Assembly: GCF_004402785.1 (NCBI RefSeq)
Contig: NZ_SOFP01000071.1
Coordinates: 1 to 64,000 of the forward strand
DNA: 64,000 nucleotides
From: Cryobacterium algoritolerans
Lineage (GTDB): Bacteria; Actinomycetota; Actinomycetes; Actinomycetales; Microbacteriaceae
Reading direction: 5' to 3'
The position numbers were made by a program, and so were the translations under genes. The notes below the pieces were generated by a model. That model saw only the letters and a list, made by a program, of their open reading frames with translations. It did not search any database and was not told where the DNA came from. Positions 7,056 through 33,709 of this stretch are shown in pieces (within the stretch, counting starts at the first letter, position 1; each line of letters begins with the position of its first letter).

Positions 7056-8270
7056 TTGGCGAAGATCAAGGTTGAAGGCACTGTCGTCGAGCTCGACGGG
7101 GACGAGATGACCCGCATCATCTGGCAGGCGATCAAGGACACCCTGATTAACCCGTATCTCGACATCGACCTCGAGTATTACGACCTGTCGATCCAGAAGC
7201 GCGACGAGACCGATGACCAGGTCACGGTCGACGCGGCCCGCGCCATCCAGAAGCACGGCGTCGGCGTCAAGTGCGCGACCATCACGCCCGACGAGGCCCG
7301 GGTCGAGGAATTCGGCCTGAAGAAGATGTGGGCATCGCCCAACGGCACGATCCGCAACATCCTCGGCGGCACCATCTTCCGCGAGCCCATCATCATCTCC
7401 AACATCCCGCGTCTCGTGCCCGGCTGGAACAAGCCGATCATCATCGGCCGCCACGCGTTCGGCGACCAGTACAAGGCAACGAACTTCCGGTTCGAGGGTG
7501 AAGGCACGCTCAGCATGACCTTCACCCCGAAGGATGGCGGCGAACCCCAGTACTTTGAGGTCTTCCAGGCGCCGGGCAGCGGCGTGGCGATGGGGATGTA
7601 CAACCTCGACAAGTCGATCATCGACTTCGCCCGCGCCTCGCTCAACTACGGCCTCGAGCGCAACTATCCGGTATACCTCTCCACGAAGAACACCATCCTC
7701 AAGGCCTACGACGGCCGGTTCAAGGACATCTTCCAGGAGATCTTCGACGCCGAGTTCAAGAAGCGCTACGAGGCCGCCGGCCTCACCTACGAGCACCGCC
7801 TGATCGACGACATGGTCGCATCCGCCATGAAGTGGGAGGGCGGTTACATCTGGGCCTGCAAGAACTACGACGGCGACGTGCAGTCCGACACCGTGGCGCA
7901 GGGCTTCGGCTCGCTCGGCCTGATGACCAGCGTACTCTCCACCCCCGACGGCAGGGTCGTCGAGGCGGAGGCTGCGCACGGCACCGTGACCCGTCACTAC
8001 CGCCAGCACCAGCAGGGCAAGCCCACCTCGACCAACCCGATCGCGTCGATCTACGCCTGGACCCGCGGCCTCGCCCACCGAGCCAAGCTCGACGCGAACC
8101 CGGCGCTCGCCGAGTTCTCGCACACCCTCGAAGACGTCATCATCAAGACGGTCGAAAGTGGCAAGATGACCAAGGATCTCGCACTCCTGGTCGGCCCGGA
8201 CCAGGGTTACCTGACCACCGAGGAATTCCTCGCGGCGATCGCGGACAACCTCCACACCCGCCTGGCCTGA
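7056..8270 (+). CDS. icd: NADP-dependent isocitrate dehydrogenase
   Basis: This 404-aa enzyme converts isocitrate to 2-oxoglutarate with CO2 release in the TCA cycle and yields NADPH. The sequence shows the homodimeric eukaryote-like IDH type: [14 protein letters not shown] near the N-terminus, the substrate loop region [18 protein letters not shown], the [14 protein letters not shown] segment, and [14 protein letters not shown] near the C-terminus. The open frame extends upstream to 6993, but the start is taken as TTG 7056 because GAGGAGA lies five bases before it and the protein family begins at this point (KIKVEGTVV). A 12-bp hairpin at 8289 follows the stop. The gene is monocistronic. Confidence 0.97.
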
Positions 8271-8288
8271 CCACCGCGCCTGAGCGGC

Positions 8289-8319
8289 GGAAGGCCCCGA
8301 GCAGCGGTCGGGGCCTTCC
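8289..8319 (+). terminator. icd terminator
   Basis: A perfect 12-bp stem, GGAAGGCCCCGA (8289-8300) with its complement (8308-8319), and a 7-nt loop lie 18 nt after the icd stop. Confidence 0.8.
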
Positions 8320-8374
8320 GGGGTTGAGGTGAGCCTTTCCTTGCTGGCGCGGCTCACCGCCCGGGGGGAAGAAT

Positions 8375-10276
8375 ATGAGCATGTCGACTCTTCTCGCCGC
8401 CGTGCGACGCTATCCTCTGGTCGCCGCCACGGTCCTCCTTGGGCTGGTCGGTGTGGTTCTCGAGTCGGCCGGGCTGCCCGAGGCGGTGGGCTGGCTGTTC
8501 AGCGGGTTCGGGCTCGCGGTGGCAGCGTACGAGGCGGTCGGCATGGTGCGGCAGCTGCGCAGGGGGACCTTCGGCATCGACTTTCTCGCCATCACCGCCA
8601 TCATCGCCACCGTGCTCGTCGGCGAATACGTCGCCACCATGATCATCGTGCTCATGCTGACCGGAGGAGCGGCGCTGGAGGACTTCGCGGTGAACCGCGC
8701 CAAGCGGGAGCTCAACGCCCTGCTCCAGCGCGCGCCGCAAATCGCGCACCGGCACAACGCCGACTTCACAGAGGTTGATGACGTGCCTGCCACGGAGGTG
8801 CGCGTGGGCGATCACCTGCTGGTTCGCCCGGCCGAGATCGTGCCCGTCGATGGGGCACTCGTCACCGACAGCGCCGCCTTCGACGAATCCTCCCTCACCG
8901 GGGAGAGCCTCCCGGTCGAACGTGTCACGGGCGATGCGATTCTCAGTGGGTCGATCAACGGCCAGGCCGCGGCTACCATCCGCGCCACCGCGACCGCGGC
9001 CAACAGCCAGTACCAGCAGATCATTGCGCTGGTCGAGGAGGCCGCGGCAAGCAAGGCGCCGGTGGTGCGCCTCGCCGACCGGTACGCGGTGCCGTTCACC
9101 GTGGTGTCGCTCCTGATCGCCGGGCTCGCCTGGCTCTTCAGCGGCGACCCGGCGCGCTTCGCCGAGGTGCTCGTCGTGGCCACCCCGTGCCCGCTGCTGA
9201 TCTCCGCTCCGGTCGCGTTCATGGGCGGGATGAGCCGCGCCGCCCGCAACGGCATCATCGTCAAGGGCGGCGGGGTGCTCGAGACCCTGTCACGGGCCAG
9301 GACCGTCGTCTTCGACAAGACCGGCACTCTCACGCACGGCACCCCCACCATCGCCCGGGTGCTGCCGGAGGCAGGCTTCGGCGAGGATGAGCTGCTGGCG
9401 CTCGCTGGCTCTGCCGAACAGTACTCGTCACACGTGCTCGCGGCATCCGTTATCGCGGCGGCCCGGGCTCGCGGGCTCGAATTGACCTCCACCGACACCG
9501 CCCACGAGGTCCCCGCCAACGGTGTCGTCGCCCGCCTCGGCTCGACCGAGGTCACCGTCGGCAAGCTGTCCTTCATCAGGGACAGAGCTCCGGATGCCGT
9601 GGCCACCCCGCTCGACGGCGGTGAACTCGCCATTTACCTCGCCGTCGACGGCCGGTTTGCCGGGAGCATCGTCGCCAGCGACAGGCTTCGAGGCAACGCC
9701 CGCCAGACGATGGCCGATTTCCGCGCCCTGGGCATCGTCGAGACCGTCATGCTCACCGGCGACGCCCGGCCCACGGCCGAGCACATCGCTGCGATGGTCG
9801 GGATCGAACAGGTGCAGGCGGACTGCCTCCCCGCCGATAAGGTCAACGCCGTGCGCGGCCTAGCCCGCCGCCCGGTGATCATGGTCGGCGACGGGGTCAA
9901 CGATGCGCCGGTTCTCGCCGTCGCCGACGTCGGCATCGCGATGGGCGCCAGGGGGGCGACCGCGGCCAGCGAATCGGCCGACGTCGTCATCCTGATCGAC
10001 GATCTGTCCCGCACGGCCCGCGCCGTCGCGATCGGCCAGGACACCATCCGGATCGCGCTACAGAGCATCTGGCTGGGGATCGTCATGAGCATCGGCCTGA
10101 TGCTCCTGGCCGCGTTCGGTTTCATCCCCGCCACGGTCGGGGCGCTGCTGCAGGAATTCGTCGACCTGGCCACGATCCTGAACGCGTTGCGGGCGATCGG
10201 CGGCCGACGGGATGCCGCGGCGCAGGCCCAGATCGCCGCCCGCGAACCTGTGACAGCCGGGATCCTCCTGCGCTGA
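8375..10276 (+). CDS. P1B-type metal-transporting ATPase with TPCP motif
   Basis: This 633-aa membrane pump has the P-type hallmarks: TGES (SSLTGESLPVE), DKTGTLT with phospho-acceptor Asp314, and GDGVNDAP in the hinge. The ion-binding membrane motif is Thr270-Pro-Cys-Pro273, not the CPC of Cu/Zn pumps or the SPC of Co pumps. Published P1B classifications place TPC pumps in a separate subgroup (P1B-5), with nickel/iron transport reported for one member. There is no N-terminal metal-binding domain and no C-terminal hemerythrin domain. The usual HP dipeptide of the nucleotide domain reads His-Val (SSHVLAAS). GGGGGGAAG precedes ATG 8375. The direction is presumably efflux; the ion is uncertain. 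Confidence 0.9.
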   Translation: MSMSTLLAAVRRYPLVAATVLLGLVGVVLESAGLPEAVGWLFSGFGLAVAAYEAVGMVRQLRRGTFGIDFLAITAIIATVLVGEYVATMIIVLMLTGGAALEDFAVNRAKRELNALLQRAPQIAHRHNADFTEVDDVPATEVRVGDHLLVRPAEIVPVDGALVTDSAAFDESSLTGESLPVERVTGDAILSGSINGQAAATIRATATAANSQYQQIIALVEEAAASKAPVVRLADRYAVPFTVVSLLIAGLAWLFSGDPARFAEVLVVATPCPLLISAPVAFMGGMSRAARNGIIVKGGGVLETLSRARTVVFDKTGTLTHGTPTIARVLPEAGFGEDELLALAGSAEQYSSHVLAASVIAAARARGLELTSTDTAHEVPANGVVARLGSTEVTVGKLSFIRDRAPDAVATPLDGGELAIYLAVDGRFAGSIVASDRLRGNARQTMADFRALGIVETVMLTGDARPTAEHIAAMVGIEQVQADCLPADKVNAVRGLARRPVIMVGDGVNDAPVLAVADVGIAMGARGATAASESADVVILIDDLSRTARAVAIGQDTIRIALQSIWLGIVMSIGLMLLAAFGFIPATVGALLQEFVDLATILNALRAIGGRRDAAAQAQIAAREPVTAGILLR

Positions 10277-10487: not shown

Positions 10488-13400
10488 ATGATGCACGTGA
10501 CCAAAAGAAGTCGGCATTTCATACTTTGGGACCATGCCCCACGTTCGGCTCGCGCTCTGCGCCGTGCCACCGCGGTGACCCTGACTGTCGGGCTGGTGGC
10601 CACCGCGGCCCTCCTCGGCGGAACGGTCGCCGCCGGGGCCGCTCCCCTGTCGGCGGCCGGCAAACCCGCTGCCACCTTCGAAGCCGGGCGTTACGTGGTC
10701 ACCCTGGCCGGCAGCGCCGTGGCCACCTACTCCGGCGGCGTCTCCGGGTTCGACGCGACCACGCCAGCCCCGGGCCGGCAACTCGACGCCCGGTCGAAGA
10801 ACGCGAAGGCCTACTCCGAGCACCTTGCGATCGAACAGAAGAGGGTCGCCGCTGCCGCCGGTGCGAGCGTCAGCGCCTCGTACACGACGGCGCTGAACGG
10901 CTTCGCGGCAGACCTCACCTCGGCGCAGGCCGCCACGCTGTATGCGAACCGTGAGGTCGTCGCGCTCGAGAGGGACTCGCTCCGCAAGATCACGGCCGAG
11001 TCGTCGACCGACTTTCTCGGCCTCGGTGACGCCACCGGCGCCGGCGGAGTCTGGGACACCGTCGGCGGCGTTCAGGCCGCCGGCGCCGGCATCGTCGTCG
11101 GCATCGTGGACACCGGCATCGCTCCGGAGAACCCGTCGTTCGCCGGGGCCCCACTCGGCACCAGCAGCGGCGCAGCACCGTACCGCGCGGCCGACGGCAG
11201 CATCAGCTTCGCCAAGTCAGACGGCGGCACCTTCACCGGCGCCTGCGTCACCGGCGTGCAGTTCACCGCGACCGACTGCAGCACCAAGATCGTCGGCGCC
11301 CGGTACTACGTCGACGGCTTCGGAGCGGCGCGGATCGGCGCGACGAGTGTTGGCGAGTATCTCTCGCCACGCGATGGCGACGGCCACGGCTCACACACCG
11401 GCAGCACCGCGGTCGGTAACCACGCCGTCGCCGCGTCGGTGGGCGGAATCGACTTCGGCACCATCTCGGGCATCGCGCCGGCGGCGAAGATCGCGGTATA
11501 CAAGGTCTGCTGGTCCGGCCCCGACCCGGCCAGCCGGGACGACGACGGTTGCGCCACCAGCGACCTCCTCTCGGCGATCGACCAGGCCACGGCGGACGGT
11601 GTCGACGTGATCAACTTCTCGATCGGCGGCGGCGCGGCCCAGACCACGGTCTCCGCCACCGACGTCGCCTTCCTCGGCGCAGCAACCGCGGGCGTCTTCG
11701 TTGCGGCCTCGGCCGGAAACGCCGGCCCCGGCGCGTCGACGCTGGATAACGCGTCGCCGTGGATCACCACCGTCGCGGCCAGCACCATCCCGAGCTATCA
11801 GGCCACCGCAACAGTCGGCAGCGGCCTCGCCTATGCGGGCGGCTCGATCACGGTCCCCGCTGCCACGGTGACCGGTGCTCTGGTGCGCGGTGACCTCGTG
11901 GCCGCCCGCCGCGCGACCGATCCGCTGCTCTGCGCCCCGAACTCGCTCGACCCGGCCAAGGTGGCCGGCAAGATCGTGTTCTGCCAGCGTGGCATCTACG
12001 ACCGGCTGGCGAAGTCGGCGGAGGTGAAGCGCGCCGGCGGTATCGGCATGCTGCTGGTGAACAAGACGGCCAGCTCGCTCGACCTCGACCTGCACTCGGT
12101 TCCGACGGTGCACCTCAATGCCGAAGCCTTCGCCACGACATTCGCCTACGCGGGCACGGCCGGCGCGACGGTGACGCTCACGCCGGGCAACACGCTTGGC
12201 ACCGCTCCGCCCACCCCGCAGGTCGCCGGGTTCTCCTCGCGCGGACCGGTCCTGGCCGACGGCAGCGACATCATCAAGCCGGACATCTCCGCCCCCGGTG
12301 TCGCCATTCTCGCCGACGGCGCGAACGCCGCCGGCCAGGCGGGAACCTATCAGTTCCTGTCCGGCACGTCGATGTCGTCGCCGCATATGGCCGGGCTTGC
12401 CGCCCTGTACCTGGGTGTGAAGCCGGCGGCCACTCCGGCCGAGGTGAAATCGGCCTTCATGACCACCGCCTACGACACGGTCAACGCGGCCGGCGCTGCC
12501 GTGACCGACCCGTTCAGCCAGGGCGCCGGGCACGTTGACCCGACGAAGTTCTTCGACCCGGGGCTCGTCTACCTCAACGGGGAAAGCGACTGGATGTCCT
12601 ACATCAAGGGCGCCGGGAACACCGGCGGCGGCCTGGACGCCGTCACCGCGGTCGACCCGTCGAACCTCAATCTGGCCTCGATCGGCATCGGTTCGCTGAC
12701 CAGGCCTGAGACGATCACCCGCACGGTGACGTCGACGCAGGCGGGTACGTTCGACTCCTCCGTGAGCGGCCTCGCCGGCATCGACGTCGCGGTCAGCCCG
12801 TCGACGCTGACCTTCGGCGCGGCGGGGCAGAGCCAGTCGTACACGGCGACGTTCACCCGAAAGGATGCGCCGGTCGATACGTTCGCGATCGGCTCGCTCA
12901 GCTGGACGAGCGGCGCCACGGTCGTGCGCAGCCCGGTGGCGGTCAAACCCGTCACTCTCGAGGCGCCGGTCGCCGCCGCTGGAACCGGCCTGACCGGCTC
13001 CATCGACATCAGCGTGACCCCCGGCACGACCGCCGACATCCCCCTGGCCACGGACGGCCTCGCGGCCGGCGTGCTGCTCAGGGAGAATAAGGGCGGTGTG
13101 AACAAGCCCTACTCGGGGGTTGGCACCGCCGGCCGGGAGATCACCTTCACCGTGCAGGTCCCGGCGGGAACGGCAGTGCAGCGCTTCGACCTTGACTCGC
13201 TGACCGATTCCGCCGACCTGGACCTGAGCGTCTACCGGCTCAGCGGCAAGGGCGGCACGCAGGTCGCCGGCTGGCAGTCGGCGACGGCTTCCACGGATGA
13301 GCACGTCGACCTGCGCAACCCGGTCGCCGGGTACTACCAGGTCGTCGTGTCGGTCTTCAGCGGCACCGACAATTACAGCCTGACCACCTTCACGGTAGCG

Positions 13401-28123: not shown

Positions 28124-28268
28124 CGGCCAGGCCGAAGAGACGGGTGCAGCGCCGGGCGGGCCGATCTGCACCAGCGCGCGGCAGTTCCGGTGCCACCCGT
28201 TCTGGTCAGCGCGGTGGCGCTGAACTACGCTCGGGAGAACGAGCGTGAGATCACGGAGGTCGCCAGCC

Positions 28269-29171
28269 ATGTCAGAGCCGACAGTGATTCGAGGTGCGGC
28301 GCCCGCGCCCTCGCCGGTGACAGCCCCTGGATCGACAGGCCAGGTGCCTCCCGGGCCGAGCGTGCGACTGGCCCTGTTCCAAGGCCGCGCCGAACCGCTG
28401 GACCTCGTGGCCAACCTCGCCGTGCTCGATCAGGCGGCCAGGGAGGCCCGGGCGGCCGGCGCCGATCTGCTGCTCACCCCCGAGCTCTTCGCGACCGGGT
28501 ACGCTCCCAGTCTGATCCGTGATTCGGTCTCGACCGCCGCGGCCGCCGACCTCGACCGGGATCTTGCACGCATCGCCGCCCGGCACGACATCGCCCTCGT
28601 CTACAGCGCACCCGGCCCAGGACCGGCAGATGACCGCCGGATCACATCCACACTCGTAGACCGCGCCGGCCGGGTGGTGGCGCGGTACGCGAAATCGCAC
28701 CTGTTCGGGGCGGAGGAGCGGGCAAGCTTCCGGCCCGGCACCGCGCCGCCACCGGTCGTCGACTTCCTCGGCCTGAAGATCGCCCTGCTGATCTGTTATG
28801 ACGTCGAGTTCCCTGAGGTCGTGCGTGACGCCGCCGTGCACGGCGCCGGCCTCGTGCTCGTGCCAACGGCGCTGAGCCGCGGTTATGAGAACGTCTCCCG
28901 GGTGCTCGTGCCGGCCCGCGCCCTCGAGAACTCCGTCACGCTCGCCTACGCGAACCACGTCGGTATCGAGGCCGGGCTCGACCTGGCCGGGGCCAGCGTG
29001 ATCGTCGGACCGGACGGCACTATCGTCGCGGACGCCGGCCGGACCACGGGCCTCAGCTACGCCACCGTCACGGCCCCCGGCACCGATGTCGACTATCTCG
29101 CCGACCGCCGACCCGAGCTGTACCGGTCCTGGACCGACGCGGCGCACGACCGGAGCGGCCGGCCCGACTGA
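28269..29171 (+). CDS. davA: 5-aminovaleramide amidohydrolase (nitrilase superfamily), DavA-like
   Basis: This 300-aa carbon-nitrogen hydrolase has the Glu-Lys-Cys triad in TPELFATGY, YAKSHLFGAEE and LLICYDVEFPE. The segments LALFQGRAEPLD, KSHLFG and ICYDVEFPE closely follow Pseudomonas DavA as I recall it. DavA hydrolyses 5-aminovaleramide to 5-aminovalerate and ammonia. The identification is strengthened by davB (the enzyme that makes the amide) two genes away. ATG 28269 has GGAGG nine bases upstream. The N-terminus is about 35 residues longer than DavA and Pro/Ala-rich. Another aliphatic amide remains possible. Confidence 0.82.
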   Translation: MSEPTVIRGAAPAPSPVTAPGSTGQVPPGPSVRLALFQGRAEPLDLVANLAVLDQAAREARAAGADLLLTPELFATGYAPSLIRDSVSTAAAADLDRDLARIAARHDIALVYSAPGPGPADDRRITSTLVDRAGRVVARYAKSHLFGAEERASFRPGTAPPPVVDFLGLKIALLICYDVEFPEVVRDAAVHGAGLVLVPTALSRGYENVSRVLVPARALENSVTLAYANHVGIEAGLDLAGASVIVGPDGTIVADAGRTTGLSYATVTAPGTDVDYLADRRPELYRSWTDAAHDRSGRPD

Positions 29172-29190
29172 CGATCGGCGCCGCACCCGG

Positions 29191-29761
29191 TCAGGGCTGG
29201 TAGGGCAACGCGATCAGCAGTTCGGCGCGCACCTCGGCGTCGTCGAGGTCGCGCCGCGACGATCAGGAGTTCGTGCTCGGGCCGGGGCTGCATCGTCTCC
29301 CGCATCAGGCGTTTGTTTGTGTCGGCGAGCGACTTGAGGGTCTCGATCCGCTTGAGCTCGAGGATCTCGGCGAAGGTGCGGGTGACCATGACGAACGGCG
29401 TTCCCTCGGCGACCACCAGCAGGGGCAGACCCACGTCGGCGCAGGCGTCGACCAGTTCGCGCGGTACCTCGGAATGCACCGGGCTGACGCCGATGCCGAG
29501 GGCGCCGACCCTGGCCGCCACGAGCCGGTCGACCTAGTCACGGATGCCCGCCGCGTCCCCCGGGGTGATCGGCGTGCCCGCGGTGAGGAGCAGCTCGCCG
29601 CCGAGCAGGTACGGGGCAGGGTCGGCCAGCTCGCTGCAGGCAACCCGGCGCAGTAGGATTGGAAAAGCCGTCGCAGGAGCGGCCCGGATCCGCCCGGTGA
29701 GCCGCGAGAGCAGCTGGGCAAGGGTTATCGTCGGCAGCCCGTCGGTTGAGGCTGTCAGCAT
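29191..29761 (-). pseudogene. Decayed PucR-family regulator (N-terminal domain remnant)
   Basis: Reading from ATG 29761, the minus strand encodes a PucR-type purine-catabolism regulator domain (TITLAQLLSRLTG, ELADPAPYLLGGELLLTAG). A TAG codon interrupts it at 29534-29536. The same frame continues (LVAARVGALGIGVSPVHSE, EGTPFVMVTRTFAEILELKR) to HELLIVA near 29255. There the frame shifts to a short DLDDAEVRAELLIALPYQP tail ending in TGA at 29191. The GGDEF-like middle and C-terminal helix-turn-helix of a full-length (about 500 aa) PucR protein are missing. It lies between the lysine genes and was probably their regulator. Confidence 0.85.
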
Positions 29762-29930
29762 CGTCCCGTCATGCCTGCAGCATTGGAGCCCGTCAATTTG
29801 ATTCCCGCGCAGCCCGCCGGTGTGAATGGCCACCGAACCGGGCGGCGCGGGACAAACCGGCCGCAGGGCCGGGCGATTCCGCAACCTACGCTGACGACAC
29901 CACCATTTTCAACGTCGGAACGGACCGTCA

Positions 29931-31433
29931 ATGACGGCCACTAGCCTGCCCCGAACCGAGACGAAAACCTCCCTGCGCACCCAGCTGGCCCGGCGCAAAC
30001 CGATCGACCGGCTCCCGCACCCCGACGAGTCGCCCCTGCCCCACGGCGACCTCAAGCGCAGCCTCGGACTCTGGCAGCTCACCATGATCAGCGTCGGCGC
30101 CACCCTGGGCACCGGTATCTTCGTGATCCTCGGCGCGTCGATTCCCCTCGCCGGGCCGGCGATCTGGATCGCCTTCCTGGTCGCCGGGGTCGCGGCGTTG
30201 CTCTCCGCCCTGTCCTACGCCGAGATGGCCAGTTGCGTGCCGGCATCCGGTTCGAGCTACTCGTATGTCTACGCGACCATGGGCGAGGGCATCGCCTGGG
30301 TCTGCGGGTGGTGCCTGGTACTCGAGTATGCCGTGTCGATCGCGGCCGTGGCCGTCGGTGCGGGCCAGTACATCAATGAGAGCCTCGCAACGTTCGGCCT
30401 GCAGCTGCCGGACGCGATCGCCCAGCCGCCCGGTTTCGGCGGAGTGGTGAATCTGCCCGCCGCCGGGCTCGTCATTCTGTCGATGCTGCTGCTCATCCGG
30501 GGTGCCCAGGAAAGCGCCTGGGTAAACACGGTGATGGTCGGCGTCAAGATCGTCATCCTGCTCATCTTCGTCGCGATCGCGTTCACGGCGTTCTCCGCCC
30601 GCAACTTCGAACCGCTTGCCCCGATGGGAGTCGCGGGGATCTCTGCGGCCGCGTCCCGGCTGTTCTTCTCCTACATTGGTTTCGATGCCGCTTCCACCGC
30701 CGGGGAGGAGGCCAGGAACCCCCAACGCGACCTGCCGAAGGCGATTATCCTGTCGATGCTGATCATCACCGTCATCTACATCCTGGTCGCGATCGCCGCG
30801 ATCGGGGCCCGGCCGTGGACCTGGTTCCACAGCGGTGAGGCCTCCCTCGTTGTCATCCTGCAACAACTCACCGGCCAGCCGTGGGTGGCCCTGGTTTTCT
30901 CCGTCGGCGCCGTGATCGCCATCGCGAGCATCGTGCTGACCGTGCTCTACGGCCAGACCCGGATCCTGATGACCATGTCCAGGGACGGTATGGTCCCCAG
31001 GGTGTTCGGCCGGATCTCCCCGCGCACGAACACCCCCGTCGCCGGCACCCTCATCGTCGGGATCGTCGTCGCGGTCGCCGCGGCCCTGATCCCACTCGGC
31101 GAACTCGCCGACGCGACCAGCATCGGCACCCTCTGCGCGTTCGCACTGGTGAACCTGTCCGTGATCTACCTCCGCCGGGCCCGGCCCGAACTCCGGCGCT
31201 CCTACCGGGTGCCGTTCTACCCGCTGGTCCCGATCGCCGGCTTCGCGATGTGCGTCCTGCTCATGCTCACCCTGGGCGGGACGACCTGGCTGGTCTTCGG
31301 AATCTGGATGCTCATTGGCACCGGCCTGTATTTCCTCTACGGTCGGAAGCACTCCGTCGTCGGCGCACTGAGCGCCGTGGATTACGCGGACGCAGCCGAT
31401 TCCTCCCTGTCGATCGTGAAGGCACTCAAATGA
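29931..31433 (+). CDS. Cationic amino acid (probable lysine) permease, APC superfamily
   Basis: This 500-aa, twelve-helix transporter starts its first helix with LTMISVGATLGTGIFVILGA. It has SYAEMASCVPASGSSYSYVY and FFSYIGFDAASTAGEEARNPQRDLP, both typical of the CAT/APC subfamily that imports arginine, lysine and other amino acids. It overlaps davB by ATGA, so the transporter and lysine 2-monooxygenase are translated together. This makes lysine the best guess for the substrate. Confidence 0.88.
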   Translation: MTATSLPRTETKTSLRTQLARRKPIDRLPHPDESPLPHGDLKRSLGLWQLTMISVGATLGTGIFVILGASIPLAGPAIWIAFLVAGVAALLSALSYAEMASCVPASGSSYSYVYATMGEGIAWVCGWCLVLEYAVSIAAVAVGAGQYINESLATFGLQLPDAIAQPPGFGGVVNLPAAGLVILSMLLLIRGAQESAWVNTVMVGVKIVILLIFVAIAFTAFSARNFEPLAPMGVAGISAAASRLFFSYIGFDAASTAGEEARNPQRDLPKAIILSMLIITVIYILVAIAAIGARPWTWFHSGEASLVVILQQLTGQPWVALVFSVGAVIAIASIVLTVLYGQTRILMTMSRDGMVPRVFGRISPRTNTPVAGTLIVGIVVAVAAALIPLGELADATSIGTLCAFALVNLSVIYLRRARPELRRSYRVPFYPLVPIAGFAMCVLLMLTLGGTTWLVFGIWMLIGTGLYFLYGRKHSVVGALSAVDYADAADSSLSIVKALK

Positions 31434-33127
31434 CAATGGCATCCGATCTTCCGCACCCCCGCGTTCCCGGCGAGGCCGCACGTCTGCCGATCACCATGCT
31501 GAATCCGGACTTCCCGTTCAGCTACGACCACTACCTGGCGCACCCGGCCGGGCTCGGCCGCGTGCCCGACCTCAAGCTGGGCACCGAGGTGGCCGTCGTC
31601 GGCGCCGGGTTGTCCGGCGTGATCGCCGCGTACGAGCTGCTCCGGCTGGGCCTGAAGCCGATCGTCTACGAGGCCGCCCGCATCGGCGGCCGGCTGAAGA
31701 CGGCCGAGTTCTCCGCGGCGCCCGGCGTTGTCGCCGACCTCGGCGGCATGCGCTTCCCCGAGTCGGGTAAGGCTTTCTACCACTACGTCGACACGGTCGG
31801 CCTGGAGACCCGGGAGTTCCCGAACCCGCTCTCAGCTGTGACGCCGAGCACGCTGATCGAGTTGGAGGGCACGGCCCATTATGCGGAGACGGCAGACGAC
31901 CTGCCGCCGTTCTTCACCGAGGTGGCCGAGGCTTGGCGGCGGGCCCTGCGCGAAGAGGTCGACTTCGACGCCGTGCAGGAGGCCCTGCGCAGCCGCGATG
32001 TTGCCACGATCAAACGGATCTGGAACCGGATCGTCGCCGAACTCGACGAGCAGACGTTCTACGGTTTCATCGCCGGCAGCGCTGCCTTCAGGGAGAAGTC
32101 CTTCGCACATCGGGAGGCCTTCGGGCAGGTCGGCTTCGGCACCGGCGGCTGGGACACCGACTTCTCTAACTCGATCCTCGAGATCCTGCGGGTGGTCTTC
32201 ACCGACGCCGACGACAAGCACCGGCGCATCCTCGGCGGCGCCCAGCGGCTCCCGGACGGTCTCTGGTCGCACGCCCCCGACGATCTGGTGCACTGGCCGA
32301 AGGGCACCTCGGTCGCCGGCCTGAACGGTGGCGTGCCGCGCGGAGCCGTCGCCTCGATCAAGCGGGGCGAGGGCGGCGGCATCCGGATCACGGAGAAGTG
32401 GGGGGCGACCCGCGAGTTCGAGGCGGCCATCGTCACCTGCCAGTCCTGGCTGCTCTCCGCCCGGATCGACACGGAGGAGACGCTCTTCGCGCCGGAGATG
32501 TGGACGGCGATCGAGCGCAGCCACTACATGCAGTCGTCCAAGACCTTCGTCATGGTGGACCGCCCGTTCTGGAACGACATCGACCCGGCGACCGGGCGGC
32601 ACGTGCTGAGCATGACGCTCACCGACCGGTTGCCGCGTGCGACGTACCTGCTCGATGACGGCCCGGACAAGCCCGCGGTCATCCTGCTCTCGTACACCTG
32701 GAACGATGACGCGCTGAAGTTCCTCTCGCTCAGCGCGGATGAGCGCACCGACCTCATGCTCCACTCGCTGAAGAAGATCTACCCCACGGTGGACATCGCC
32801 TCCCACATTGTGGGCGAGCCGATCACGGTGTCGTGGGAGGCCGACCCCAACTTCATGGGCGCATTCAAGAACAACCTGCCCGGTCACTACCGCTACCAGG
32901 AACGGCTCTTCGGGCACTTCGTGCAGCACGAGTTGCCTGCCGCCCAGCGCGGCGTCTTCCTCGCCGGTGACGACATCTCGTTCACGGCCGGCTGGGCGGA
33001 GGGCGCGGTGACCACGGCCCTCAACGCGGTCTGGGGGACCGTGCGGCACCTCGGCGGGGAATCGGCGCCGGGCAACCCGGGCCCCGGGGACGTCTGGGAC
33101 GAGCTGGCGCCGGTCGTCCTGGACTGA
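31430..33127 (+). CDS. davB: L-lysine 2-monooxygenase, DavB-like flavoprotein
   Basis: This 565-aa FAD enzyme belongs to the flavin monoamine oxidase family, with the dinucleotide motif VAVVGAGLSGVIAAYE. Long segments match the lysine 2-monooxygenase DavB of Pseudomonas as I recall it: NPDFPFSYDHYLAHPAGLG, ADLGGMRFPESGKAFYHYVD, GQVGFGTGGWDTDF, YMQSSKTFVMVDRPFW and PGPGDVWDE. The reaction is oxidative decarboxylation of L-lysine to 5-aminovaleramide, the substrate of DavA. It begins at ATG 31430 inside the permease stop, with GAAGG upstream. DavT and DavD, which finish the route to glutarate, are not in the window. Related enzymes act on tryptophan or phenylalanine, so the substrate still needs proof. 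Confidence 0.85.
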   Translation: MTMASDLPHPRVPGEAARLPITMLNPDFPFSYDHYLAHPAGLGRVPDLKLGTEVAVVGAGLSGVIAAYELLRLGLKPIVYEAARIGGRLKTAEFSAAPGVVADLGGMRFPESGKAFYHYVDTVGLETREFPNPLSAVTPSTLIELEGTAHYAETADDLPPFFTEVAEAWRRALREEVDFDAVQEALRSRDVATIKRIWNRIVAELDEQTFYGFIAGSAAFREKSFAHREAFGQVGFGTGGWDTDFSNSILEILRVVFTDADDKHRRILGGAQRLPDGLWSHAPDDLVHWPKGTSVAGLNGGVPRGAVASIKRGEGGGIRITEKWGATREFEAAIVTCQSWLLSARIDTEETLFAPEMWTAIERSHYMQSSKTFVMVDRPFWNDIDPATGRHVLSMTLTDRLPRATYLLDDGPDKPAVILLSYTWNDDALKFLSLSADERTDLMLHSLKKIYPTVDIASHIVGEPITVSWEADPNFMGAFKNNLPGHYRYQERLFGHFVQHELPAAQRGVFLAGDDISFTAGWAEGAVTTALNAVWGTVRHLGGESAPGNPGPGDVWDELAPVVLD

Positions 33128-33148: not shown

Positions 33149-33188
33149 GGCGTCCCTGGCTCAGGCCTGCGGCTCGGCCAGGGACGCC
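33149..33188. terminator. Terminator between davB and gamma-CA gene
   Basis: A perfect 12-bp stem GGCGTCCCTGGC / GCCAGGGACGCC has a 16-nt loop. The second arm lies inside the 3' end of the convergent gene, so it can serve both directions. Confidence 0.7.
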
Positions 33189-33709
33189 GAGTGCAGGGCC
33201 GAATGCTCCAGATACGCCTCGGCGTTGTGACGGATGCCGGCCACCTCGTCATCCGTCAGCGCCCGGCGCACCTTCGCGGGCACTCCGGCGACCAGGGAAC
33301 GCGGCGGTACCACGCTGCCCTCGAGCACGACGGCCCCGGCCGCGACGAGCGAGCCCACGCCGATGACGGCGCCGTTGAGGATGGTCGCCGACATTCCCAC
33401 GAGCACGTCGTCCTCGATCGTACAGCCGTGCAGCACGGCGCCATGGCCGACGGAGACGTTGCGACCGAGGATCAGAGGGAAGCCGTGGTCGACGTGGCAG
33501 GACACGTTGTCCTGCAGGTTGGAGCCGGCGCCGATCCGGATCGGCTCGGCCTCGGCGCGGAGCACCGCGTTGTACCAGACGCTGGCGTTCTCGGCCAGGA
33601 TGACCTGGCCGACGAGCACGGCGCCGGGGGCGACGAACGCGGTGGCGGCCACGCTCGGTCCGGGGCGGTCGGCGAGGGTGATGATGCGGGCGGTGTTGTC
33701 GGCAGTCAT
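33161..33709 (-). CDS. Gamma-carbonic-anhydrase-like hexapeptide protein
   Basis: This 182-aa left-handed beta-helix protein of the gamma-CA/YrdA/PaaY group forms trimers. Hexapeptide repeats run from about residue 20 to 145. The three zinc-type histidines are seen in NVSCHVDHGFP and VGHGAVLHGC. Arg and Gln positions (WYNAVLRAE, NLQDN) are those of the family active site. ATG 33709 lies 7 nt after a TAGGCT -10 box. Many members have no measurable carbonic anhydrase activity, so the enzymatic role is unproven. Confidence 0.88.
   Translation of the reverse strand: MTADNTARIITLADRPGPSVAATAFVAPGAVLVGQVILAENASVWYNAVLRAEAEPIRIGAGSNLQDNVSCHVDHGFPLILGRNVSVGHGAVLHGCTIEDDVLVGMSATILNGAVIGVGSLVAAGAVVLEGSVVPPRSLVAGVPAKVRRALTDDEVAGIRHNAEAYLEHSALHSASLAEPQA

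Follow-up and report, generated by a model that had tools for sequence, protein, structure and literature searches.

The nearest relative by sequence of the flavoprotein considered here is the AIU 813 enzyme of Pseudomonas (PDB 3we0 and 5yb6-8; EC 1.13.12.2 / 1.4.3.2), for whose monooxygenase activity kcat/Km values of 74, 200, and 24 per s per mM are reported for lysine, ornithine, and arginine, respectively (PMC5832979). Since this enzyme uses all three substrates, homology alone identifies a relative as acting on a basic amino acid, and not on lysine. In Streptomyces, arginine monooxygenase and 4-guanidinobutyramide hydrolase are described as successive enzymes (PMC5082578), and the two occur together in polyketide producers of this genus (PMC5082578, PMC4737276, PMC10322714, and PMC8944477). 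A Streptomyces protein provisionally annotated as an agmatinase is reported to convert 4-guanidinobutyrate to 4-aminobutanoate, that is, gamma-aminobutyrate (GABA) (PMC5704753). An arginine-to-GABA pathway, termed the oxidase/dehydrogenase pathway and drawn via 2-ketoarginine, is stated to have been recognized first in Streptomyces griseus, from its products (PMC2242806). In this study, we analyzed a gene cluster at positions 28269-33127 of a 64,000-nt stretch (hereafter the window; G+C content, 68.7%) of contig NZ_SOFP01000071.1 of the actinobacterium Cryobacterium algoritolerans. The arginine route is also said to have been described biochemically decades ago in Arthrobacter and Brevibacterium helvolum.

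The initial annotation read the cluster as davA, a permease gene, and davB, which would import lysine and convert it to 5-aminovalerate. Our analysis retained a basic-L-amino-acid 2-monooxygenase, an amidase, a permease resembling cationic amino acid transporters (CATs), and a decayed regulator, but the assignment to lysine is probably wrong. Judging from sequence comparison, we consider it likely that the cluster provides import and the first two steps of the arginine oxygenase route, in which arginine is converted via 4-guanidinobutyramide and 4-guanidinobutyrate to GABA and urea. This is a reannotation within a known route, not a new system. It joins observations on the gene content, the sequence type and tree position of the monooxygenase, the linkage of the gene to ureohydrolase (speB) genes in relatives, and the presence of speB in the same genome.

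The flavoprotein gene (31430-33127, forward strand) encodes a member of the Pfam family Amino_oxidase (E = 4e-50). Residues 13-564 of the protein matched the L-amino acid oxidase/monooxygenase 3we0 with an E value of 2.7e-231, and the identity to the AIU 813 enzyme was 56% over aligned columns. All seven substrate-holding residues of AIU 813 (Arg102, Trp235, Asp238, Tyr416, Trp418, Phe473, and Trp516) were kept. Asp238, which binds the positive end of lysine, ornithine, or arginine (PMC5832979), corresponds to Asp244 of the window protein (codon 32159-32161). By contrast, tryptophan 2-monooxygenase was distant (E = 5e-55); IaaM, an enzyme of this kind, was 33% identical and has Val at the Asp238 position, where the phenylalanine oxidase PAO is reported to have Leu319 (PMC5832979), PAO itself being outside our alignment. 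A tryptophan monooxygenase was thus rejected on the basis of low similarity, the retained Asp, and a tree position apart from IaaM; the last of these answers part of a check proposed in the initial annotation. The flavoprotein is a true relative of the AIU 813 enzyme, and neither a tryptophan nor a phenylalanine enzyme.

Near full-length homology, the flavin adenine dinucleotide (FAD) fold family, and Asp238 are shared with lysine 2-monooxygenases of the DavB/AIU 813 type, but the window protein lies outside their clade and lacks their pocket residues (Cys, Leu, or Phe at 254, Gln258, and usually Ala515; AIU 813 numbering throughout). Three positions in the substrate cage or next to it differ from AIU 813: C254A, Q258H, and A515G, the last corresponding to Gly521 (codon 32990-32992). 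In AIU 813, Gln258 contacts the substrate through water at its amino-acid end, and the chain of the substrate is lined by Ala515; Gly at 515 is also found in the tryptophan and phenylalanine enzymes, where it widens the pocket (PMC5832979). A wider pocket with Gly515 would suit arginine better.

These positions divide the family into two types. Among 124 distinct homologues (the truncated L116 and the duplicates L083, L178, and L186 were dropped, and AIU 813 and IaaM are outside the count), 103, including the window, carried A254 and H258, and all 103 had G515. None of the other 21 carried A254 or H258; in these, position 254 is Cys, Leu, or Phe and position 258 is Gln, with A515 in 19, and AIU 813 belongs to this type. 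At twelve aligned columns, the two types have no residue in common, including 254, 258, and, around Tyr416 and Trp418, positions 417, 419, and 420. The full signature of the window's type is A254/H258/G515 with T417, C/N/S419, and D420, compared with A/S417, M419, and G/S/T420 in the AIU 813 type. The window's type was found mainly in Actinomycetota, with three rows titled Pseudomonadota (L117, L120, and L123), and the AIU 813 type mainly in Pseudomonadota, L065 and L066 being its two rows from the phylum of the window. All 30 named Streptomyces rows were of the window's type, in a table that does not include the matches first found in a separate search of 295 Streptomyces genomes. The sole annotated record of the window's type that was examined, from Tsukamurella (L038), is labeled only "NAD(P)/FAD-dependent oxidoreductase."

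A maximum-likelihood tree was built from 48 rows with less than 85% identity, those linked to speB being chosen first; in it, the AIU 813 type formed one side of a branch supported at 100/100, with the window outside. The window and L052 were sister to sequences from Nesterenkonia and Auritidibacter (100/98). The very long IaaM branch makes the root unsure; the split between the types is a branch of its own.

We next compared the positions of speB-type genes near the homologues, where a gene is called absent if the fetched stretch lacks it (of the 127 rows, 12 were on loci under 15 kb). Such a gene was present in the stretch at 15 of the 103 loci of the window's type and 1 of the 21 of the AIU 813 type, and many rows of the window's type are Streptomyces or Arthrobacter loci with no speB in the stretch. 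Counted per 85% identity cluster, the linkage was 12/26 versus 1/15 (p = 0.014). The placement of the genes says more than counts per locus. The speB gene is immediately followed by the flavoprotein gene in four genomes (L056-L059) belonging to the window's order. Within the sister group of the window's lineage (L079, L081, L090, and L112), speB was located within 5 kb at three of four loci, namely in Auritidibacter and in two of three Nesterenkonia; it also lies within this distance in Kineococcus, Haloechinothrix, Rhodococcus, Actinomycetospora, Geminicoccus, Palleronia, and G422. The linked genes of Geminicoccus and Palleronia grouped with the solved guanidinobutyrase 3nio (99/98, in a group including L066) and belong to a different ureohydrolase subfamily. 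In Tsukamurella tyrosinosolvens, a plasmid-borne run (L038) contains speB together with a permease, a nitrilase, and a flavoprotein gene, the last of the same pocket type as the window's. This run differs from the window in identity (57%), in gene order, and in having an XRE-family regulator nearby instead of PucR. A homologue of this small XRE-family gene was present in the stretch at six speB-linked loci (L038, L056, L058, L060, L114, and L138). A wider proposal, for which we regard the case as evenly balanced, equates the A254/H258/G515 type with the catabolic arginine 2-monooxygenase of Actinomycetota; this would be a large family, with homologues in most Streptomyces genomes and patchily in the window's order, next to which two ureohydrolase subfamilies would have been separately recruited.

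The genome carrying the window has a strong member of the arginase/agmatinase family (PF00491) at G000:C51:23033-24088, unlinked to the cluster, and a second, weaker match on C81 (95.8 bits). The nearest PDB entries to the former were a 3-guanidinopropionase and a guanidinobutyrase, ahead of agmatinases. In the SpeB tree, where the branches of the E. coli protein and 3nip were long, it was sister to those of Auritidibacter L079 and Nesterenkonia L081 (98/98), whose speB genes lie near the monooxygenase gene, and this pairing is mirrored in the monooxygenase tree. The genome thus holds, by homology, a 4-guanidinobutyrase of the kind linked elsewhere to the monooxygenase, alongside a basic L-amino-acid 2-monooxygenase homologue and an amidase gene. 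All 13 relatives with the flavoprotein had a SpeB homologue (E <= 1e-20), compared with 53 of 120 overall (hypergeometric probability, 9.6e-6, uncorrected for kinship). Some of these matches were marked with one internal stop, including those of the flavoprotein-bearing G019, G027, and G052; in G019 (L161) the stop corresponded to query residue 13, which is not in the conserved part, and in G027 (L160) no stop was located within the alignment. At L067 (5461-10092), the host speB was found near an ABC (ATP-binding cassette) transporter of the amino-acid type (binding protein, permease, and ATPase), next to an ADP-ribosylglycohydrolase gene.

The initial annotation had noted that davT and davD are missing nearby and had called for a genome-wide search for the finishing enzymes. 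Homologues of E. coli GabT and GabD (E <= 1e-15) were indeed absent among the window's open reading frames (ORFs) of at least 120 aa. Elsewhere in the genome, two matches to GABA transaminase exceeded the curated cut-off, and matches to the semialdehyde dehydrogenase were found only below theirs. The missing davT and davD are no puzzle on the arginine route, because that route uses a guanidinobutyrase and a GABA transaminase, for which there are candidates elsewhere in the genome. By homology, a putative putrescine-to-succinate cluster was located at G000:C68:83089-88562, where a putrescine oxidase homologue lies together with homologues of GABA transaminase and a succinate-semialdehyde-type dehydrogenase.

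In the proposed route, the CAT-like permease would take up arginine, and the flavoprotein would use O2 for its oxidative decarboxylation to 4-guanidinobutyramide. The amidase would release ammonia to give 4-guanidinobutyrate, and the unlinked ureohydrolase at G000:C51:23033-24088 would split this into GABA and urea. The GABA transaminase and the succinate-semialdehyde-type dehydrogenase encoded elsewhere may then lead GABA to succinate. The same two activities are predicted in the window as in the azalomycin/marginolactone Streptomyces, also Actinomycetota (PMC5082578 and PMC4737276), the comparison being one of activities. In those producers, a CoA ligase activates the acid, which serves as a polyketide starter, whereas the ureohydrolase and GABA genes here suggest catabolism. 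A role in polyketide starter supply was rejected, as no arginoketide cluster was found among the scanned loci: a ketosynthase-motif pattern had no match in the loci first scanned, and a single DTACSA-like match was located in 1 of 18 further Streptomyces regions (L243).

Several results weigh against the arginine reading. On the enzyme side, AIU 813 shows that the family is promiscuous, and the charge-sensing Asp is retained in the window; moreover, the replacement C254I lowers the monooxygenase activity of AIU 813 below detection (PMC5832979), and the window has Ala at this position. On the linkage side, counts of speB per locus did not separate the types (p = 0.30), and at 75% identity clustering the linkage was 9/13 versus 1/7 (p = 0.057). 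No speB was found in the stretch at any of the seven loci of the window's genus, including the window. Furthermore, in L066, which belongs to the AIU 813 type, a guanidinobutyrase-like gene was located at a distance of 1.4 kb and on the other strand. The pocket of L066, with this neighbor, reads F254, Q258, and G515, from which Gly515, rather than 254/258, might be the marker of arginine use. The SpeB of Nesterenkonia L112 grouped with those of L059 and L060, not with those of L079 and L081, so that the gene trees agree only partly, and our confidence was therefore lowered slightly. In the host genome, NCBIfam called SpeB an agmatinase, above the cut-off, and the best of several succinate-semialdehyde dehydrogenase matches scored 561.6 bits, below the curated cut-off of 646.35. 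Given the agmatinase call and the putrescine oxidase homologue beside the GABA genes, SpeB could serve an agmatine route. Finally, a passage of PMC5082578 states that S. lividans is without arginine monooxygenase, and a homologue of the flavoprotein was present in 284 of 295 Streptomyces genomes (E <= 1e-150). Either S. lividans is exceptional, its copy is silent, or the streptomycete homologue acts on another substrate.

A true lysine route through DavB and DavA, in which lysine would pass via 5-aminovaleramide to 5-aminovalerate and be completed by a transaminase of the GABA type and a semialdehyde dehydrogenase encoded elsewhere, is the best surviving alternative, and we consider it unlikely. 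The identity to AIU 813, the retention of Asp238, Trp235, and the aromatic cage, and the GABA transaminases of the host genome are all compatible with it, and most rows of the AIU 813 type (14 of 21) are likewise accompanied by a nitrilase gene. However, the position outside the AIU 813 branch, the three altered pocket positions, and the speB-adjacent relatives with partly matching trees speak against lysine as substrate and 5-aminovalerate as product. No match to CsiD, which belongs to one glutarate route, was found in the host genome, other glutarate routes being outside this search.

We see a small chance that the enzyme is broad, acting on lysine, ornithine, and arginine in a general scavenging operon. 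AIU 813 behaves in this way, and the permease shows no clear preference. It belongs to AA_permease_2, and its nearest PDB chains were "Amino acid transporter" 5oqt/6f34, followed by cationic amino acid transporters 4 and 1, which is consistent with arginine or lysine. On the other hand, arginine is indicated as the selected substrate by the change of type combined with the neighboring speB genes of the sister lineage, and by two Pseudomonadota rows (L117 and L120) linked to another ureohydrolase subfamily. It is highly improbable that the protein is an oxidase whose main product is a 2-keto acid, leaving the amidase to another substrate: position 254 is changed, and C254I raises the oxidase activity of AIU 813 about fivefold as its monooxygenase activity drops below detection (PMC5832979), but a nitrilase-family gene in the stretch at 94 of the 103 loci of the window's type suggests amide formation.

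Arginine remains the substrate that we consider likely for the cluster, with the amidase as a predicted 4-guanidinobutyramide hydrolase (28269-29171, forward strand). Its ORF extends from 28245 to 29171, and the start at the ATG at 28269 is supported because the copy in the close relative L049 also begins with MSEPT. The protein belongs to the nitrilase superfamily (CN_hydrolase, E = 6e-38), and the Glu, Lys, and Cys readable in its motifs (P0002) are presumably the usual catalytic residues. Its nearest PDB entries were 4izt and its group, titled "Amidase," which we take to be structures of a Nesterenkonia aliphatic amidase. The 4izt sequence was 75% identical to the amidase of L081 (Nesterenkonia; 11784-12566), encoded 65 bp from the monooxygenase gene. 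The natural substrate of the 4izt amidase may therefore be 4-guanidinobutyramide, and if the arginine route is correct, this crystallized group would gain a likely natural substrate. Under the same condition, a family labeled lysine 2-monooxygenase by homology alone would be an arginine enzyme, flux models for actinobacteria as well as searches among them for 5-aminovalerate enzymes would be misled, and genes would be assigned to the old arginine-to-GABA route. The A254/H258/G515 signature is simple and testable and could settle the discrimination between arginine and lysine in the family.

ORF coordinates and domain searches agreed with the gene positions given by the initial annotation for the amidase, the dead regulator, the permease, and the flavoprotein, and the cluster as observed is far beyond chance. 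The gene for the APC-superfamily permease (29931-31433, forward strand), predicted to import cationic amino acids, shares an ATGA overlap with the flavoprotein gene at 31430, as had been claimed. The arrangement of amidase, permease, and monooxygenase is widespread in Actinomycetota. At Arthrobacter-type loci, a permease homologue with 63-71% identity immediately precedes the monooxygenase gene or adjoins it. In L051, L052, and L053, from the window's genus, the amidase gene is immediately followed by the monooxygenase gene, and no permease orthologue was found beside the cluster.

A divergent PucR-family regulator once stood between the amidase and permease genes; being dead here, its control would have been lost or passed elsewhere. 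The remnant (29253-29884, reverse strand) was delimited by tblastn and blastn against the intact gene of L049, its PucR fragment being below the Pfam cut-off. Codons 1-209 of 551 are left, with an in-frame TAG at 29534-29536 and ~960 bp lost relative to L049, in agreement with the earlier description of a dead regulator. The intact 551-aa gene is present at the same place in the close relatives L049 and L050, and the L049 protein has both the PucR and HTH_30 domains, whereas neither a complete PucR domain nor a C-terminal HTH_30 is left in the window. L048 retains other, smaller pieces of pucR, and no match to PucR was found in L051-L053. The differing remains therefore point to separate events or continuing decay. 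PucR homologues were detected at 39 of 128 loci searched, counting the window remnant.

An Arthrobacter/Paenarthrobacter locus (L078) has the same order of amidase, divergent pucR, permease, monooxygenase, and hexapeptide-repeat genes as the window. It differs in that the regulator gene is open and that an alanine-racemase-type gene (7147-8379) lies between pucR and the permease gene on the pucR strand, as at 14 of the 128 loci, all Arthrobacter-type and including L078. Its product might be a racemase for arginine or lysine, through which D-amino acids would enter the route, or the gene might be the housekeeping alr. Upstream of the cluster, ORFs resemble what we take, by eye, to be glyA and folD. 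Directly after the monooxygenase gene, a hexapeptide-repeat gene (33161-33709) is located on the opposite strand; it was found at the window and 36 further loci among the 128, in the window's genus and at many Arthrobacter-type loci, with L109 as an exception in which it lies elsewhere in the stretch.

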